A stretch of 64,000 nt of DNA from Oleisolibacter albus. GTDB lineage: Bacteria > Pseudomonadota > Alphaproteobacteria > Azospirillales > Azospirillaceae. Position numbers and translations under genes: made by a program. This document shows, piece after piece, positions 3,533 to 43,112 of this stretch. A model generated the notes under the pieces. The model saw only the letters and a list, made by a program, of their open reading frames with translations, searched no databases and was not told the origin of the DNA. The stretch is from positions 310,001 to 374,000 of the forward strand of contig NZ_QGNJ01000003.1 in the NCBI RefSeq assembly GCF_003336875.1, in the 5' to 3' direction. How positions within the stretch are numbered: position 1 is the stretch's first letter; each line of letters starts with the position of its first letter.

Positions 3533-4679
3533 GGTCTTCTCCCGTGCGTGGCGGTGGGGCCGCATCGCCCCCCGGCCCCTGGCCGATGCAGGCCAGGGCC
3601 AGCGGTACGGTGCGGCGGGCCAGCGCCTGCAGGTCCGGCAGCCGCCCGGCGAGATGCCGGCGCTGGATGTCCTGCTGGTCCCAGAGCCGGTCGAGTGCGG
3701 CCAGGAAGGCGCCGGTGCGGGCGTCGCCGGCTGCCATATGTTCGGCGATGCCCAGGCTGTCGACGAGGTCCTGGACCTTGGCGGCATAGGGCAGGGCCAT
3801 GAAGGGCACGCCCATGACCGCGGCGAAGATCAGGACGTGCAGCCGCATGCCGGCCACGGCCTGGAAGCGGCCCACCAGCCCCATGATCTGGCGTGGATCA
3901 TAGGCTCTCCGCAGCACATGGGCCCGCTCCGGCCGACGCATGCGGGCAATGACCTGATGGCTTTCGTTGCGGTCCACCCGTTCCATGGGCACGAACACCA
4001 CATCGGCGTCGAAGCGGTCGGCCATGAAGTCGGCGGCATCGGCTACCAGCGCGTGATAGGCCCCCGGTGCCAGACCGGGCGCGGCGGCACCGGGTTCCCG
4101 CACGGAAAGCCCGACCAGACGGCGGTCGCTGGGGATGGCTTCGGCCTGGAGCATGGCGTCGGTGAAGGCCAGCGGTTCCAGCAGCAAGGCCGGATCGGCC
4201 GTCACTTCCACCGGCACACGGACCCCGATCTCCTCGCACAGGCGCTTGGCCGTGACCTCGCGCACGGTGATGCCGGCCATGCGGTTCAGTCCGTCGCGCA
4301 CGGCACGCCGCTCATCCCGTTCCTTCAATGGGCCGATGCCCACGGCGAAGGCGAAGGTGGGAATGCCCAGCTCATGGGCCAGACGCACTTCGCGCAGATA
4401 GGCCTGAGCTTCGCTGTCATACAGGATACCGCCGCCGCCCAGCAGCAGCAGGTCCAGACGCCCGACCTCGGGCAGGATCTGGTCGCGCAGAGCCGTGCGG
4501 GCGTTCAACGCCCGGTCCACGTCCTGGTGGCGCCGCGTATGCTCGGCATCGCGGGAAAAGGCCACGATCTCCACGCTGGGGCAGGCCGTGCGCAGCTGCC
4601 GGATGGCCGAGCTGAGGATGGCCTCGTCCCCGACATTGAGGCCGCCATAGGAGCCGGAAATTCCGACGACAGGGGGCAT
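3507..4679 (-). CDS. Polysaccharide pyruvyl transferase family protein (CsaB-like)
   Basis: 390 residues. ATG at 4679 is preceded by GGAG at 5 nt; a longer reading frame upstream lacks such a site. The N-terminus has the family's GGLNVGDEAIL nucleotide-fold motif (residues 12-22), then LLLGGGGILYDSEA around residue 85, and a C-terminal GMRLHVLIFAAVMGVPF segment containing the conserved His. This is the GT-B-like fold of CsaB/WcaK-type enzymes that transfer pyruvate from phosphoenolpyruvate to a sugar in a surface polymer. There are no glycosyltransferases next to it; the partner is the overlapping FAD oxidoreductase. Acceptor unknown. A second, unrelated pyruvyl-transferase-like gene lies in the lasso cluster at 38.5 kb. 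Confidence 0.8.
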   Translation of the reverse strand: MPPVVGISGSYGGLNVGDEAILSSAIRQLRTACPSVEIVAFSRDAEHTRRHQDVDRALNARTALRDQILPEVGRLDLLLLGGGGILYDSEAQAYLREVRLAHELGIPTFAFAVGIGPLKERDERRAVRDGLNRMAGITVREVTAKRLCEEIGVRVPVEVTADPALLLEPLAFTDAMLQAEAIPSDRRLVGLSVREPGAAAPGLAPGAYHALVADAADFMADRFDADVVFVPMERVDRNESHQVIARMRRPERAHVLRRAYDPRQIMGLVGRFQAVAGMRLHVLIFAAVMGVPFMALPYAAKVQDLVDSLGIAEHMAAGDARTGAFLAALDRLWDQQDIQRRHLAGRLPDLQALARRTVPLALACIGQGPGGDAAPPPRTGEDLANPPIAF

Positions 4680-35882: not shown

Positions 35883-36344
35883 TGGAAGGCATGGCCATGG
35901 CGAAAGCCAGCAGCGCGGCCAGCATCTCGCCGATCCGGCGGCGCGCGCACAAAGTGATGTGGGAGGAGTGGCTGCCCATACTACGTCTCCATCCCAAGCC
36001 CCTGATAACCTTGGAATGTCGCACTTCAAAATAGAACCCTCCGCCTACAGCCCAAAAGCGCGATAAGAAACATTATGGGCATTGAATATCTATAGCTCCA
36101 TCCGGTGCTGGGACGTGGACCTGATCGCTGCCTCAGGGCCGGGCAAGCTCTTCCGCTGCTGACCGGCGCTGGGCAGGCTGAAGCAGAAAACAGTAACCCG
36201 GGAATCATCCCCTGAATTCACTCGATCCTTAATCGGCCAAATGCCATGATAGCCGCCAAGGATCGGGGCTTGCCGTCCCAGCCGCCCTTATGGGCCTGGC
36301 AGAAACTCAGGCCATCAGCCGAATAGTTGGAAATACCTTCTCAA
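35883..36344. other. 462-bp spacer between the histidine kinase and the lasso cluster
   Basis: No gene is supported in either strand: open frames are short and lack a recognised protein. The promoter of the lasso cluster is expected here; the AT-rich patch around 36060-36095 is a candidate but I cannot place a -10/-35 with confidence. Confidence 0.5.
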
Positions 36345-36662
36345 ATGTCGAGACGCTTGATGGAAAATCTCGAAACCACCATAGATGCCAAGACGATCAT
36401 ATCGCGGAATGAGAAGCTCACATTTACTGACATTGATGATGAATTGATTCTGCTGTCTCCGACCCTGGGCCGTGTCTTCTCGCTCAACAAGACCGCCAGG
36501 GCCACATGGCTTCTGCTTGACAAGCCGATCACGTTCGGCCAGATCTGCGCACAGTTGACAGAGGTTTTTGATGTCGACGAGGAGGAGTGCCGGACAGAAT
36601 TGGCACGGCTGATCCGTGAATTGGCGAGCATGAAGCTTCTCTCGCTAGCCCCACCATGCTGA
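36345..36662 (+). CDS. Lasso peptide B1 protein (PqqD-like RiPP recognition element)
   Basis: 105 residues from ATG 36345; ATG 36360 is a second possibility. The fold of PqqD-type RRE proteins is visible: FTDIDDELILLSPTLGRVFSLNKTARATWLLLDKP, then a helical C-terminus (CRTELARLIRELASMKLLSL). In lasso systems this domain (B1) binds the precursor's leader and delivers it to the peptidase. The 3' end overlaps the B2 gene by 7 nt. Confidence 0.88.
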   Translation: MSRRLMENLETTIDAKTIISRNEKLTFTDIDDELILLSPTLGRVFSLNKTARATWLLLDKPITFGQICAQLTEVFDVDEEECRTELARLIRELASMKLLSLAPPC

Positions 36663-37081
36663 AGACCAAGTGCCTCCTGCTGTTGGAGGCCCTTCTATTT
36701 CTGCTGATTGCGCGACTGCTGCTGGGTCTGGTCCCCGTACCCCGGCTGGTTGGTCTTCTGTCACGCCCGCTTTGTGGAGCAACAGAAACCTCAAGCCCTG
36801 TTCAGGATCAAGCCATCGCTTCCGTACATGACGCCATCCTGTGGGTCTGGCGCCGCGGCTGGCTGCGCGACCGTTGCTTCCATCGTGCCATCGCCGCCCA
36901 TCTGATGCTGCGTCGGCGCAACATTCCGACGCGCTTTCATTATGGGGCTGCCACGTTGCCGGAACGCGGACTGACGGGGCATGTCTGGCTGACGGCCGGA
37001 GAGACGTTCGTTGTCGGCGGCGACCAAGCCAGTCGATATCGACATTTGTTCGACTGGGGCCAACAGCATCCAGATCAATAA
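36656..37081 (+). CDS. Lasso peptide B2 protein (transglutaminase-like leader peptidase)
   Basis: 141 residues. A membrane-like N-terminal helix (LLLLEALLFLLIARLLLGL) is followed by a Transglut_core3 domain: catalytic Cys74 in RDRCFHRAIAAHLMLRRR, His109 in GHVWLTAG and Asp123 in VGGD. This Cys-His-Asp protease removes the leader peptide. It is separate from B1, as in split-B systems. It follows B1 with a 7-nt overlap and precedes the precursor gene by 154 nt. Confidence 0.9.
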   Translation: MLKTKCLLLLEALLFLLIARLLLGLVPVPRLVGLLSRPLCGATETSSPVQDQAIASVHDAILWVWRRGWLRDRCFHRAIAAHLMLRRRNIPTRFHYGAATLPERGLTGHVWLTAGETFVVGGDQASRYRHLFDWGQQHPDQ

Positions 37082-37235
37082 ACACGCGGCGACACACAAG
37101 TTAATTGGTTAATTTACCGGGTGGGTCCAAGATCAAGCCGCGACGATGCGATTGCGCCACCCGCGCCGATCTGCTACGAAAAAGAGGCTGGCCGCACGTC
37201 GGCACGCTGAGATTGAAGAATTTGGGGGGCGTGAA

Positions 37236-37409
37236 ATGAGTGGAATGGACATGGGTCCGATGGGCAAGGCCGGTGGTACTGCGCCGTCCACCCCCAGCAC
37301 GCGGCTGGAGTGGGTAAAGCCGGAGGTCAGGACGGAAGAGATGTCAGACGCGCTGACTGGCGGCTCCAACTTCCTGAATCTCGACGGTGGAAGCTCCTGC
37401 GCCAGCTGA
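37236..37409 (+). CDS. Lasso peptide precursor, predicted 15-residue core
   Basis: 57 residues from ATG 37236, preceded by a G-run (GGGGGG) 7 nt upstream; an upstream in-frame start would add 30 residues of unrelated Arg-rich sequence. The leader contains W26-V-K-P29-E-V, matching the aromatic-xx-P leader motif recognised by RRE proteins (usually YxxP). Thr41 and Gly42 end the leader, giving the near-invariant Thr at position -2. The core (Gly43-Ser57, GSNFLNLDGGSSCAS) has Gly1 and Asp8, fitting an 8-residue macrolactam ring. A nine-residue ring would require the Thr at -1 and is less likely. The tail GGSSCAS has no bulky plug. The C-terminal Ser is the acceptor in kinase-tailored lasso peptides. 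It lies 16 nt upstream of the glycosyltransferase gene. Confidence 0.8.
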   Translation: MSGMDMGPMGKAGGTAPSTPSTRLEWVKPEVRTEEMSDALTGGSNFLNLDGGSSCAS

Positions 37410-37425
37410 GGTCTTCCACAGCCAA

Positions 37426-38472
37426 GTGACGGTGGTGCAAAAACGCATTCTGTTGCTGGGATGGCAAACCACCATCGGCTCGGGAGTGCTGGCGATCCCG
37501 GCAATCCGGGCGGTACAGGCGCATTTCGGGTCAACATATGACCTGTGGCTGCTGACAAGGCCAGTGTGCCCCGGCGCATCGCATCCGGCGGATTTGCTGG
37601 CCGCTTGGGTTGGCTTGCGTGGCGTTCTGTCTATGCCAAGGCTGCGCGACCTGCCGGGGTGGTTCCGCCTGATCCGGCAGGTTCGACGCCTTCGCTTTGA
37701 TCACGTCATCTATGTCGATCTGTCCCGCCCCCGCCAACGGGCACGGCGCATATTGCCCTTCCTTTGCAAAATCGCAGGGCTAGGCCGGCCCCTCGGTTTT
37801 CCGCGCACGCCTGTCCCCGCGATCCCGCCGAAGAGACATGAAGCGGCGGGGAGGCTGGCCAATCTGGCCGCTGACGGCATCAATGCACCAGCGCTTGCCG
37901 TGATGCCGCGGCTGCCAATACCGCCCCATGAGGAAGCAGATCTCTGGCTTGCCGCCCACCGTCGCCCGGGCCGTCGCCTCGTCGCCCTATGTCCCGGCGC
38001 ACGGGCCTCCGCCAATCATTGGCCGCTGGACCGGTTCATGGCTCTGGGCGCGGCGCTGCTGGCCCGGGGGGACTGCGATGTGGTGGTTTGTGGCGGCCCC
38101 GCGGAACGGGAGGTCGGCCAGAGCCTGCGCGAGCGGTGGGGAGCAGGACTGGTGACGGCAGGCGAGTTCGACCTTGCTGGAACCGCCCGTTTGCTGGCGC
38201 ATTGCGATCTCGTGGTCGGGCTGGATACCGGAACCAGCCATTTGGCGGCCGCGCTGGGCATACCGGTGATTGTTCTACAGGGCGCGCGCACATGGGCGGG
38301 GATGTGGGACCCGCTGGGTCCCGCCGTCACCGTTCTGCGGCTGGACCTTCCCTGCGCCGGCTGCGGGTTGATGCGTTGCCCCCTGGCCGCGCATCCCTGC
38401 ATGCGGGGCATCACCCTGTCGGCGGTCTGGCAGGCGGTGGAACGGGTGCTTCCCTCCCCCGGTGCATCATGA
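37426..38472 (+). CDS. GT9-like glycosyltransferase of the lasso cluster
   Basis: 348 residues from GTG 37426, 17 nt past the precursor stop; the start is not fixed (GTG 37432 and 37435 are near). The GT-B architecture and C-terminal ADP-heptosyltransferase-like motifs are visible: ANHWPLDRFMALG and the nucleotide-binding VVGLDTGTSHLAAALGIPVIVLQGA. Heptosyltransferases of this family add sugars in LPS. Here the context (directly after the precursor, coupled to lasso enzymes) suggests it transfers a sugar onto the peptide or onto a phosphorylated residue, an inference. It ends with an ATGA overlap with the next gene. Confidence 0.78.
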   Translation: MTVVQKRILLLGWQTTIGSGVLAIPAIRAVQAHFGSTYDLWLLTRPVCPGASHPADLLAAWVGLRGVLSMPRLRDLPGWFRLIRQVRRLRFDHVIYVDLSRPRQRARRILPFLCKIAGLGRPLGFPRTPVPAIPPKRHEAAGRLANLAADGINAPALAVMPRLPIPPHEEADLWLAAHRRPGRRLVALCPGARASANHWPLDRFMALGAALLARGDCDVVVCGGPAEREVGQSLRERWGAGLVTAGEFDLAGTARLLAHCDLVVGLDTGTSHLAAALGIPVIVLQGARTWAGMWDPLGPAVTVLRLDLPCAGCGLMRCPLAAHPCMRGITLSAVWQAVERVLPSPGAS

Positions 38473-39335
38473 ATCTGGGCTGCCATTACTGGGGCCAGGG
38501 CCGATTCGTCCTCAACCTTGGCGATGCTTTGGTGCCGCTGATCCTGGAACATCTGGGCTATGGCTGCCAAGCGCCGGCCAAGTCGCAGACTGTCGGCAAC
38601 CCCGGCCGGACACTGCTGATTATCGGCTCCCTGCTGGACGATGCCGACCTGGACCGGTTGGATGGGCCGATCGACGTCTGGGGCTGCGGCTGGCGCGGCC
38701 GTCCTCTCGCCAGCCGCAACCGGGATCGGCTGCACATCCATGCCGTGCGCGGTCCCCTCACCGTCCGTGGTCTTGAACTTCCACCGGACATGCCCGTGGG
38801 CGATCCCGGTTTCCTGATGCCGCGCATCATCGCCCCACCACGGCACCGGAATGGGCAGCGGCTGGTCCTGCCACACTGCCTGCGCATCGGCAGGACGCGG
38901 ATCGATGAGCGCTTGCGCGCCACCGGGGCCGATCGGGTTTTATCGCCCTGGGTTCTCCGCCGCCAGGGGCGGTTGCGCCCGCGGACATTGCTTCAGGACG
39001 CACGGCGCCTGCTTGCGGCAGGGACAAGGCCGATGGGACCGGTGCAGGCCGTCCAGGCCATCGCGGGGGCCGGCTTCGTCCTGACGGGAAGCCTTCATGG
39101 CGCTATTCTCAGTCATGCCTACGGCACGCCCTGGGCGGCCTACGACGATCTGGGCATCGATACGCCCGCGAAATGGCAGGACCTGGCGACCCTGCTGGGG
39201 ATCGACATCGCGCTGGTCCGATCAATCCGTGAGGGTGAAGCCTGGTGGGACCGCACCGGTCAATGGGCGGCCATTCCTGACATGGACGCGATGCTGCGAG
39301 CCTTCCCCCATCCCCGGACGGAGATGACGGGATGA
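38469..39335 (+). CDS. Polysaccharide-pyruvyl-transferase-like protein in the lasso cluster
   Basis: 288 residues, ATG 38469 overlapping the previous stop (ATGA). Typical PS_pyruv_trans segments: NLGDALVPLILEHLGY near the N-terminus, LLIIGSLLDD and GSLHGAILSHAYGTPW near residue 215. The family transfers a pyruvyl group from PEP to a sugar hydroxyl. In this cluster it may decorate the sugar added by the GT9-like enzyme, which would be unusual for a lasso peptide. It is distinct from the CsaB-like protein at 3507-4679. Confidence 0.78.
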   Translation: MNLGCHYWGQGRFVLNLGDALVPLILEHLGYGCQAPAKSQTVGNPGRTLLIIGSLLDDADLDRLDGPIDVWGCGWRGRPLASRNRDRLHIHAVRGPLTVRGLELPPDMPVGDPGFLMPRIIAPPRHRNGQRLVLPHCLRIGRTRIDERLRATGADRVLSPWVLRRQGRLRPRTLLQDARRLLAAGTRPMGPVQAVQAIAGAGFVLTGSLHGAILSHAYGTPWAAYDDLGIDTPAKWQDLATLLGIDIALVRSIREGEAWWDRTGQWAAIPDMDAMLRAFPHPRTEMTG

Positions 39336-40306
39336 AACTGCTGGCGCCGGACGACTTCATCCCCTCGGCATGGCAGCCCGCAGATCCGAACGGGCCGATC
39401 CGCATGTTCAACCCCGGCCTCGCCCTGGCCGCGGGGACACGGGTCCTGGCCTATCGGCTGGTTCTGGCCGATGGCCGGCGGCGGCTGGCCATCTGCCGAC
39501 TGGATTCGTCCGACCGGCCCCTGCCCGGAACGGTCGTGCCCCTGTCGGATCTCATGCCTGATGCTGGTCCCTGGCAGGCCGATCCGCGCCTTTGTGTCGT
39601 GGGCGACCGCCTGTTCTTGCATTTCAACAACGGAGATCGTCTCCGTCCCAACAGCATCTATCTGGTCGAGCTGGACCCGGACAGCCTGATGCCGTTGTCG
39701 CCCCCCCGGCCCCTGTGCCTGGCAGGGCCGCGTCGCGCCATTGAGAAGAACTGGATGGTGTTCACCCCCGATGGTGAAGATCTTCTGGCGATCTACAGTA
39801 TCCGGCCGCATGTCGTGCTGCGGCTCCATCTTGCACCGGGGGGACCGATCATATGCCGGCCGATCGCGGGCAGCGACTGGTCGGTGCCCGCCCTGCCGGC
39901 CGGCACCGGCGAGCCGCGCGGCGGTACAACGCCGGTGCGGGTCGGCGACAAGTTCTTCTCCTTCTTCCACATGCTGCGGCCGTCGCCCGTCCTGCCGCGG
40001 CTGCTGCACCGCCTCCGCCATCGCGGTGGCCGGCCGCTACACCGCTATGACATGGGATTCTATGGTTTCGACGCGGCGCCCCCCTACCGCCCCGTCTGTT
40101 TTACGCCCCGGCCCGTGCTGCCGGTTCCCGCCAGGCAGAGCGGCATGCCCCCGCTGAACCGGGACGCGGAAAGGGTCCTCTACCCCATGGGAGCGCTGTT
40201 CGACGGCCAGACCTGGACCGTCAGCGCCGGCATGCACGACGAGCGGAGCTGCCTGCTGGCGTTCAACCATGTAAAGTTGCTGGATCTGGCGGAACCGGTG
40301 GGATGA
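39332..40306 (+). CDS. Beta-propeller glycosidase/glycosyltransferase-like protein of the lasso cluster
   Basis: 324 residues, ATGA overlap with the previous gene. The segment spacing (FNPGLALAAG, ADPRLCVVGDRLFLHFNNGD, EKNWMVFTPDG, GGTTPVRVGDKFFSFFHM, SAGMHDERSCLLAF) resembles five-bladed propellers of the GH43/GH130/GT108 group, where EKNW is a frequent ligand-binding motif. I cannot confirm catalytic residues. Whether it cleaves, transfers or merely binds sugar is open; the location supports a role in the glycosylation step. Confidence 0.6.
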   Translation: MKLLAPDDFIPSAWQPADPNGPIRMFNPGLALAAGTRVLAYRLVLADGRRRLAICRLDSSDRPLPGTVVPLSDLMPDAGPWQADPRLCVVGDRLFLHFNNGDRLRPNSIYLVELDPDSLMPLSPPRPLCLAGPRRAIEKNWMVFTPDGEDLLAIYSIRPHVVLRLHLAPGGPIICRPIAGSDWSVPALPAGTGEPRGGTTPVRVGDKFFSFFHMLRPSPVLPRLLHRLRHRGGRPLHRYDMGFYGFDAAPPYRPVCFTPRPVLPVPARQSGMPPLNRDAERVLYPMGALFDGQTWTVSAGMHDERSCLLAFNHVKLLDLAEPVG

Positions 40307-42225
40307 GCAGCATCTTCGGTTATGTCCGCCGCACGGCGGCGGCACCTGATGAAGGGGACCTGGTTCGTATGGACCTGGCGCTGGCCGGGCCTTTCAACAG
40401 GGACGCGGGTCGAACCGTACAGGGCCAAGCCGGGCTGGGCGCCCGCGCCTGGACAATTCATGACAAGGCGGGTGCTGCCGCGACCGGTTCGGGCATCCGC
40501 ATCGACGGTTCGATTGTCTTCGCCGCCACCGGCCGCGTGGACAACAGGCGGACGCTTCTTCCGCAGTTACAGCGGAGCGGGTGTCTGCCTCCCGACGGAA
40601 ATGATCTCGACCTGTTGTTCGCAGCCTACCGGCAATGGGGGATCGATGGCCTGGACCGTATCGCCGGCTGCTATGCCTTCGCTGTCTGGCATGCGGATAC
40701 CCGGCGACTGGTGCTGGTGCGGTCAGCCCCGGTGGCGCCGCCGCTTTATTATCACCAGGGCGGAGACGGCCTGTTCGCCTTCGCCACCATGCCCCGCGGC
40801 CTGTTCGCCCTGCCCGGTCTGACCCGCCGGCTGGACCGCCGGATCCTGGCCATGAATCTGATCCGGCTCTCCGGACCGGACGAGGCGACGCTCTATCAGG
40901 ATGTCCGGCGCCTGCCGACAGGCTGCGTGCTGGTACGCCAGGGCGATGCCCCCCCGGTGGTGGAGTCCTGGTGGCGACCGGGTCCTGGGGCGCCGTCGCC
41001 CACCGGGGACGATGCGGAAGGGTTTGCCGCGGCGTTGCGCGACCTGATGGCCCAGGTGGTGGTCGAACAGATGCCGGAAACGGGACCGACGGCCATGCTG
41101 CTGAGTGGCGGACTCGACTCCACCGCGATTGCCGCCCTGGCCGCGTCCAGCCGGCCGGGTCGCGCCCTGATCGGCTTTACCCATGTCCCCCGCCCCGATG
41201 CGGGGGTCACGATCCCTTCTGGCTGGAACCTGGATGAAAGCAGCCATGTCAAGGCGATCGCCGCCCTCCATCCCAACCTCGACTCCCGGCTGCTGCCGCC
41301 CTCAATGGGCTACTTCCTGGATGGTGCTGATGCCATCACCCGGATGCAGGAACGCCATTTCTCGAACATCGGCAATCTGGCCTGGATGTCAGCGGCAGCG
41401 GAGGAAGCCCGGGAAAGCGGGGTCCGGGTGATGCTGACCGGCACACAGGGTAATTTGACGGCCAGCCGCAATGGTGGACTGCCCCTGGTTGTCGCCCTGC
41501 TGGAGGGGCGGTGGCACGGCATTGCGCGCCATCTGTCCCTCCACGCCGCCCTGTCGGCCGGCCTGTTGCTGCTGCCGGATGTGCTGCGGCGGTGGCAACA
41601 AGGCCTGCGTGGACATCCCTTCGCCGCAATCAGGAAGCCATGGCGGCATTTCTCCGCGATCAATCCGGCCTTCGCCAAGACCCAGGATATCGATGATCTG
41701 GGCCGGGAATGGCTGGAAACCTATCTGCCGCGTTCCCCGGCGGACGAACGCCCCGCCCTGCTGCACCACCTGCGGCGCCAGGACCTCGGCCTGACGGACC
41801 ATGCATTGACCAGTCTGCATGGCGTGGAATACCGCCACCCGCTGGCTGATATTCGCATCGCCCGATTCTGCCTGTCCGCGCCCAACGGACTGTTCCATGC
41901 CGACGGCCAGCCACGGTCCGCGATCCGCGCCGCGCTGCGCGGACTGCTGCCCGACAGTGTGCTGTCCAACAGGCTGCGTGGCCTGCAGGGAGGCGATGTC
42001 CTGCTGCGCATGCGCTCCCACCCGAACAACCTTGCGGCGGACCTGGACCGGTTGGAAGGATCGGCGCTGGGACGCGAGATCCTGGACCTGCCGCGCATGC
42101 GGGCTGCTATGCCCCGTCTCTCCGACATGGACGGCGCGGCCGTGCCGATCCTCACAAGTTTACTGGTCTTCGGCCTCAGCATGGGCCGGTTCCTGTGTTG
42201 GCTGGAAGACGAAGGCGTCCAATGA
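40303..42225 (+). CDS. Lasso cyclase (asparagine-synthetase-like, protein C)
   Basis: 640 residues, ATGA overlap with the propeller gene. The N-terminal domain begins MSSIFGYVRR: the glutaminase nucleophile Cys2 is replaced by Ser, as in lasso cyclases. The ATP-pyrophosphatase motif SGGLDS is at 268-273 in the synthetase domain. It is expected to adenylate Asp50 of the precursor and form the macrolactam with Gly43. Its position, behind three tailoring genes and ahead of a kinase, is unusual: normally C adjoins B or A. Confidence 0.9.
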   Translation: MSSIFGYVRRTAAAPDEGDLVRMDLALAGPFNRDAGRTVQGQAGLGARAWTIHDKAGAAATGSGIRIDGSIVFAATGRVDNRRTLLPQLQRSGCLPPDGNDLDLLFAAYRQWGIDGLDRIAGCYAFAVWHADTRRLVLVRSAPVAPPLYYHQGGDGLFAFATMPRGLFALPGLTRRLDRRILAMNLIRLSGPDEATLYQDVRRLPTGCVLVRQGDAPPVVESWWRPGPGAPSPTGDDAEGFAAALRDLMAQVVVEQMPETGPTAMLLSGGLDSTAIAALAASSRPGRALIGFTHVPRPDAGVTIPSGWNLDESSHVKAIAALHPNLDSRLLPPSMGYFLDGADAITRMQERHFSNIGNLAWMSAAAEEARESGVRVMLTGTQGNLTASRNGGLPLVVALLEGRWHGIARHLSLHAALSAGLLLLPDVLRRWQQGLRGHPFAAIRKPWRHFSAINPAFAKTQDIDDLGREWLETYLPRSPADERPALLHHLRRQDLGLTDHALTSLHGVEYRHPLADIRIARFCLSAPNGLFHADGQPRSAIRAALRGLLPDSVLSNRLRGLQGGDVLLRMRSHPNNLAADLDRLEGSALGREILDLPRMRAAMPRLSDMDGAAVPILTSLLVFGLSMGRFLCWLEDEGVQ

Positions 42226-43112
42226 TCCGTTGGCACTATCGGCATGCGGGACTGACCGTCGACAGCCCGGTGGCAATCCACGACTGGGCTGCATTTGCCA
42301 TTCCTGCAGCAGCCGAAGCGGATGTGACGGTGGATCTGGCAGCCTTCGATCCGGCATCGCCCGATACGGATCGGGTTGAGGACGAGGGCCGCGTCATCTG
42401 GATCGGGGGGCCGGCCTTTGCCCGGTTCCGTGTCGTCGCCGGACGGACGATCACGGTCCATCCCCTACCCGGCGTGGCACCCCGGCAGTGGCTGCCGTTC
42501 CTTCTGGGAAGTGCCTGGAATGCGCTTTGTCTGCAACGGGGACTTCTCCTGCTGCATGCCTCGGTCGTGGGGGGACCGGACGGCGCTTATGCCTTCTGCG
42601 GTCCGTCCGGCGCCGGGAAGTCCACCACGGCCGCGCGTTTGATGCGCCGTGATCTGGCGCTGTTGTCGGATGATTTATGCCGTGTCGACCCTGGTCAGCC
42701 TGCCCTTGTCCATCCCTCCGCCCCCAGGCTTCGGCTGTGGGCCGATGCGGTCCTCGCCCTGGGAAACGATCCGGCAACGCTGACCCGGGTTCTCGACGGG
42801 CGCGACAAGTATCTGCTTCCAGCGGACGGTCGCGCCGAAATCGCACCGGTCCCCCTGCGTGGTATTTTCCTGTTGGAATGGGGCGCGCACCGCGTGGAGC
42901 GCCTGACCGGCCTGACGGGATTGTCCCGCCTCGTGCGGGATGCAACCTTTCGGCCATGGATGATCGACGCGATGGGCCTGACAGCCCGGCATTGGGAACA
43001 GTGCCTGGCTCTGCTGGGGTCGGTCCCTCTGTATCTGTTCCGCCGCCCCCATGACCCGTCTTCCCTGCACACGGCCACAGATCTGGACCATCCCCCTTGG
43101 CACGATCTATGA
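42222..43112 (+). CDS. HprK-related kinase of the lasso cluster
   Basis: 296 residues, ATGA overlap with the cyclase. Walker A is GPSGAGKST (127-135), with HAS at 112-114 and the SDDL motif at 149-152 typical of HprK relatives; the N-terminal third is not the HPr-binding domain. Paeninodin-type systems use such kinases to phosphorylate the hydroxyl of the C-terminal Ser of the lasso precursor. The predicted core ends in Ser, so the assignment fits. True HPr kinase is unlikely because no HPr or PTS gene is near. Confidence 0.85.
   Translation: MIRWHYRHAGLTVDSPVAIHDWAAFAIPAAAEADVTVDLAAFDPASPDTDRVEDEGRVIWIGGPAFARFRVVAGRTITVHPLPGVAPRQWLPFLLGSAWNALCLQRGLLLLHASVVGGPDGAYAFCGPSGAGKSTTAARLMRRDLALLSDDLCRVDPGQPALVHPSAPRLRLWADAVLALGNDPATLTRVLDGRDKYLLPADGRAEIAPVPLRGIFLLEWGAHRVERLTGLTGLSRLVRDATFRPWMIDAMGLTARHWEQCLALLGSVPLYLFRRPHDPSSLHTATDLDHPPWHDL

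Follow-up and report, generated by a model that had tools for sequence, protein, structure and literature searches.

A split-B, kinase-type lasso peptide operon of Oleisolibacter albus with a candidate three-gene sugar module

The locus lies in a window of 64,000 nucleotides (the whole stretch of DNA that was analysed) on contig C23 of a 4.69 Mb genome of Oleisolibacter albus. Eight genes occupy 36345..43112 in the order that the original prediction had assigned to them, each at its predicted position:

36345..36662, + strand: B1, PqqD-like leader-binding protein (PF05402; start ATG at 36345 or 36360)
36656..37081, + strand: B2, transglutaminase-fold leader peptidase (NF033537)
37236..37409, + strand: precursor A, 57 aa (predicted leader of 42 aa, then core GSNFLNLDGGSSCAS)
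37426..38472, + strand: GT9-like protein (PF01075; GD to GS, Lys of KxWP to Asn, Asn of ND(T/S)G to Leu)
38469..39335, + strand: polysaccharide-pyruvyltransferase-like protein, PPT (PF04230; NxGD, VRGPLT, GDP and SLHG motifs)
39332..40306, + strand: five-bladed GH130-like propeller (assigned by fold)
40303..42225, + strand: C, asparagine-synthetase-like macrolactam cyclase (PF00733; SGGLDST)
42222..43112, + strand: HprK-related lasso kinase (conserved motif residues)

The predicted ATGA overlaps, which join the five genes from the GT9-like gene onwards, are present at 38469 (GT9/PPT), 39332 (PPT/propeller), 40303 (propeller/C) and 42222 (C/kinase). B1 shares 7 bp with B2, 154 bp separate the end of B2 from the start of A, and 16 bp separate the end of A from the GT9-like gene. 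The GC content per kb is 0.567–0.624 over the B1-B2-A stretch (36000–37999) versus 0.66–0.69 from the GT9-like gene to the kinase (38000–43000), and the operon is perhaps of composite origin. A second PF04230 match in the window (3786–4637, minus strand), 32 kb away, is stronger than that of the operon's PPT.

The core proteins were compared with family models. B1 scores 54.5 bits against PF05402 (PqqD, Pfam; cut-off 23.4) and 45.8 bits against NF033536 (NCBIfam), below the cut-off of 80. B2 matches NF033537 (lasso_biosyn_B2, NCBIfam) at 60.9 bits, above the cut-off of 33. C scores 83.7 bits against PF00733 (Asn_synthase, Pfam; cut-off 21) and 157 bits against the NCBIfam lasso cyclase NF033535, far below the cut-off of 525. 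The kinase reaches 30.2 bits against TIGR04352 (HprK_rel_A, NCBIfam; cut-off 200), and all its HprK matches are sub-threshold. Because C and the kinase fall below the NCBIfam cut-offs, conserved residues were compared instead. The comparison sets for B1, B2, C and the kinase consist of proteins that resemble those of the window and exceed score limits, and are therefore no sample of all lasso proteins; within them, and with the window protein included each time, Trp54 of B1 is Trp in 40/40 aligned proteins, Cys74, His109, Trp111 and Gly121 of B2 are identical in 49/49, Gly270, Asp272, Glu312 and Gly383 of C are kept in 33/33, and His112, Gly127, Gly132, Lys133, Ser134, Thr135 and Asp151 of the kinase are identical in 34/34 (Gly130 in 33/34, Asp150 in 32/34). 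The columns of C are held in common with 32 C proteins from lasso-type loci; SGGLDST is present, as is LTG..GN.T.S, a motif common to many of the compared proteins. The kinase retains the lasso-kinase motif H-GxxGxGKS-DD (motif as in PMC10368454), and in relatives as well kinase genes lie near C and B genes.

Precursor A has no family match and encodes MSGMDMGPMGKAGGTAPSTPSTRLEWVKPEVRTEEMSDALTG before the predicted cut and GSNFLNLDGGSSCAS after it. The cut region, ALTG/GSNFLNLD (the slash marks the cut), has Thr(-2), a small residue 1 and Asp at position 8, as lasso precursors require. The predicted core consists of a Gly1–Asp8 ring and a tail of seven residues, GGSSCAS, with a C-terminal Ser. 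Short ORFs of relatives, for example at loci L061, L099, L105, L110 and L120, have in common W..P, Thr(-2), a small residue 1, D/E near position 8 and often a C-terminal Ser; they were found with a regular expression already containing most of these features, so that, of the common features, just the Trp and the C-terminal Ser owe little to the search pattern. Counted by eye, the leader Pro-to-Thr spacing is 12 in the window versus 10–11 in four relatives.

Lasso B2 matches occur in 36 of 145 relative genomes and 33 of 385 class genomes, in total at 70 places in 57 genomes; the 66 loci that were fetched cover all of these places except the window's own and G214:C116. By the original prediction's own criterion, it would be refuted if precursor, B1, B2 and C failed to co-occur in relatives; phmmer searches with the window proteins as queries find three or more of B1, B2, C and the kinase at 40 of the 66 loci and all four at 24. 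Family matches, conserved residues, precursor anatomy and co-occurrence agree with the lasso/paeninodin logic proposed for B1, B2, A, C and the kinase, and we hold with high confidence that the operon has a split-B, kinase-type lasso peptide core.

Three further lasso B2 genes lie in the same genome, at C23:184352 (L106), C41:187500 (L105) and C41:32906 (L107). Tandem Phage Tail Collar proteins (PF07484), usually three and on one strand, are encoded near or between the lasso genes at 23 of the 40 fuller loci (L059, L060, L062–L069, L072, L079, L090, L096, L111–L114, L119–L123), 406–3321 bp from the nearest lasso core gene, a count that carries no background rate and comes from phylogenetically non-independent loci. 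The window's own cluster has no Collar protein, and no paper containing "lasso peptide" together with "tail collar" was found in the open-access literature.

A layout with a PPT and a propeller between precursor and cyclase had been called unfamiliar, and at none of the 66 lasso-type loci fetched for comparison does phmmer find a relative of either window protein. Within the material examined, the layout is new. The one GT9 match among the 66 (L114, phmmer) proved to be a TPR protein. PF04230 is present in 21 of the 57 lasso-bearing genomes, at 37 places; only in the window does it lie less than 10 kb from B2 on a shared contig (1.6 kb), and the next-closest, a short match of 31.6 bits in G323, is 13.1 kb away. 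The 40 fuller loci have 148 neighbour proteins, whose commonest families are Collar (26), Sulfotransfer_1 (23), GNAT (11), 2OG-Fe(II) oxygenase (10), ABC (10) and NTP_transf_5 (5); GT9 and PPT are absent from the 25 families listed out of 72. When the 4–10 kb before secDF in seven congeners were searched by blastn, nothing matched the window at 36.0–43.8 kb, and the propeller is missing from all ten congeners searched; in the set compared, this genome alone thus has the operon at this site. Since the layout recurs at none of the 66 loci, conservation cannot back a joint function of module and peptide. Sugar genes of other kinds do occur at related lasso loci: at L105, in the window's own genome, a GT2 gene adjoins the kinase gene and an NTP_transf_5 gene is also present, L124 has a GT41, and L093 combines NTP_transf_5 with a sulfotransferase and two kinase-like ORFs. 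L105 also holds a precursor-like ORF with a Ser end. A sulfotransferase gene is found at 22 of the 40 related loci, often adjoining the kinase (for example L096:11818-12654 and L099:1782-2639).

The GT9-like protein matches PF01075 at 91.8 bits (Pfam; cut-off 22), which upholds the family half of the original call of a GT9-like glycosyltransferase. It falls below every NCBIfam heptosyltransferase equivalog cut-off (best 84.1 versus 134.6), and the hallmark residues are replaced: the GD-motif Asp is Ser and the KxWP Lys is Asn, both kept in 20/20 other GT9s and both of which we take to be catalytic in GT9 as in WaaC. The DTG..H stretch is retained, but the preceding Asn is Leu. Given this loss, the protein should not be named a heptosyltransferase, and the case warns against taking gene names for functions.

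The pyruvyl-transferase-like call is borne out by a PF04230 score of 47.6 bits (Pfam; cut-off 25.3), and a weak model of the protein is GT-B-like. In CsaB the PEP-binding residues are given as R148, H308 and K328 (PMC10435577). In the window's PPT, aligned with three PPT domains of L127, the candidate residues are Arg94 (VRGPLT) and His210 (SLHG), which those domains share, and a Lys 25 residues past His210; the R306 position is Ser. Neither Pfam (GH130 included) nor NCBIfam gives a match to the propeller at E up to 1. The predicted beta-propeller could nonetheless be refined to a sugar-enzyme fold, the five-bladed propeller of GH130 mannoside phosphorylases and GT108 mannosyltransferases, to which it shows about 8–17% identity in structural alignments; a profile of three propellers searched against the PDB returns GH130 chains best (5b0p, E 8.5e-4). 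At L127:9024-11435 a single ORF fuses a propeller to a PPT; the locus is rich in PPTs, carries WcbI and genes for ABC-2 export, and encodes an AMP-binding enzyme behind the fusion (read on L057, same contig).

We propose, with a probability of about 0.55, that three added genes of the lasso operon form a sugar module whose products act on the peptide. B1 would bind the leader, B2 would cut after Gly(-1), behind Thr(-2), and C would join Gly1 to the Asp8 side chain by an isopeptide bond, so that the tail GGSSCAS follows a ring of eight residues; the kinase would phosphorylate a Ser, most probably Ser15 at the C-terminus. Protein families and conserved residues are the grounds for these steps. 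The GT9-like protein, the PPT and the GH130-like propeller may build a small saccharide on the peptide, perhaps on the phosphate, and this saccharide would probably be acidic and bear a pyruvate ketal; we infer this step only from the coupled translation of the genes and the functions of their families. A PPT need not imply a saccharide, since members of its family also use non-sugar natural products as substrates. ATGA coupling, the GH130 fold, the propeller-PPT fusion elsewhere and the sugar genes at related lasso loci point to a module working on the peptide. A fully specified pyruvylated glyco-phospho-lasso is rather improbable: here the Ser15 phosphate would be the sugar acceptor, which would explain a GT9 without its general-base Asp, the propeller would extend or trim the sugar, the PPT would cap it with a pyruvate ketal, and the bulky acidic sugar would be the plug keeping the tail threaded.

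Several alternatives, not mutually exclusive, were weighed against this proposal. Around a real lasso core, the three genes may be a stray piece of a pathway for an exopolysaccharide or surface glycan, trapped in the operon and never touching the peptide. The nearest propeller relative does lie in a polysaccharide-type locus, the single PPT match among plasmids sits between exosortase and polysaccharide genes, the operon has no sugar-nucleotide synthesis gene, and among 145 relatives no other genome has the propeller. Placed between the genes for precursor and cyclase and joined through four ATGA overlaps, the three genes are, however, unlikely to be passengers, and other lasso loci of the group bear other sugar genes; we consider this explanation unlikely, if a serious contender. 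Much the same weight goes to a division of labour in which a catalytically dead GT9-like protein serves as scaffold or carrier, glycosyl transfer falls to the propeller, a putative transferase, and the PPT caps the propeller's sugar. The lost Asp and Lys and the fused propeller-PPT fit it, as does a fold shared with enzymes that use mannose-1-phosphate or GDP-mannose, whereas the retained DTG..H stretch speaks against a dead GT9.

A PPT acting straight on peptide hydroxyls, with no sugar made, appears very improbable. PPT-family action on non-sugar chains has been proposed in two non-ribosomal lipopeptide-like pathways, those of chitinimine (two alkyl hydroxyls carrying a ketal) and megapolipeptin (an ester) (PMC13291983), and the tail offers three Ser; against this, the PPT is coupled to a GT9 and to a GH130-like propeller, and a relative of the propeller is fused to a PPT. 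The same enzymes might instead yield an unthreaded branched-cyclic peptide, a doubtful outcome, somewhat less so than direct pyruvylation. It is suggested by the tail, which lacks a steric plug: all of its residues are small, none bulky enough to hold the thread, and the L093 precursor-like ORFs have short tails too (GGLGSTP, GGTPTV). The enzyme set is nevertheless that of lasso biosynthesis throughout, and a tail sugar or phosphate could itself serve as plug.

A lasso peptide glycosylated iteratively was reportedly described by Sun et al. in 2025, the sugar being on the mature lasso peptide as in our proposal. A review of 2026 lists Ser glycosylation (PMC13352647). The idea of a phosphorylated and sugar-decorated lasso peptide is already known from pseudomycoidin: the psm cluster of Bacillus pseudomycoides, like the window, combines lasso genes with a kinase and a sugar-adding gene, and PsmK and PsmN add phosphate, then hexose, to the C-terminal Ser (PMC9266682). 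PsmN is annotated as a nucleotidyltransferase, and the sections of that paper used here mention no GT9, PPT or propeller (PMC9266682). Paeninodin and the ThcoK/SyanK phospho-lasso systems combine an HprK-like kinase His-Lys-Asp-Asp motif with a precursor C-terminal Ser, and the window has both (H-GKS-DD and Ser); unlike the window, they appear in the same sections without a sugar module (PMC9266682). In the bsf cluster of Bradymonas sediminis, where B1 assists the kinase, the kinase motif H-G-G-G-K-S-D-D and the Gly1–Asp8 ring are as in the window, whereas Ile(-2), a YxxPxL leader and phosphorylation at Ser3 contrast with the window's Thr(-2) and W..P (PMC10368454). Our search of the open-access literature found no lasso peptide system with a pyruvyl group or PPT and no RiPP to which a PPT-family enzyme adds pyruvate; the N-terminal pyruvyl of thioamitides comes from dehydrated Ser, not from a pyruvyl transferase (PMC8153245).

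As read from sequence, the gene set suggests a phosphorylated, sugar-decorated lasso peptide of new make, its chemistry as yet unproven. Even with an idle module, tailoring genes for sugar, sulfate and phosphate stand at many alphaproteobacterial split-B lasso loci. If the proposal is true, a pyruvate-capped lasso peptide would widen the chemistry of the class, and it would offer both a trial of a sugar as steric plug and a small soluble acceptor for the study of the PPT family.
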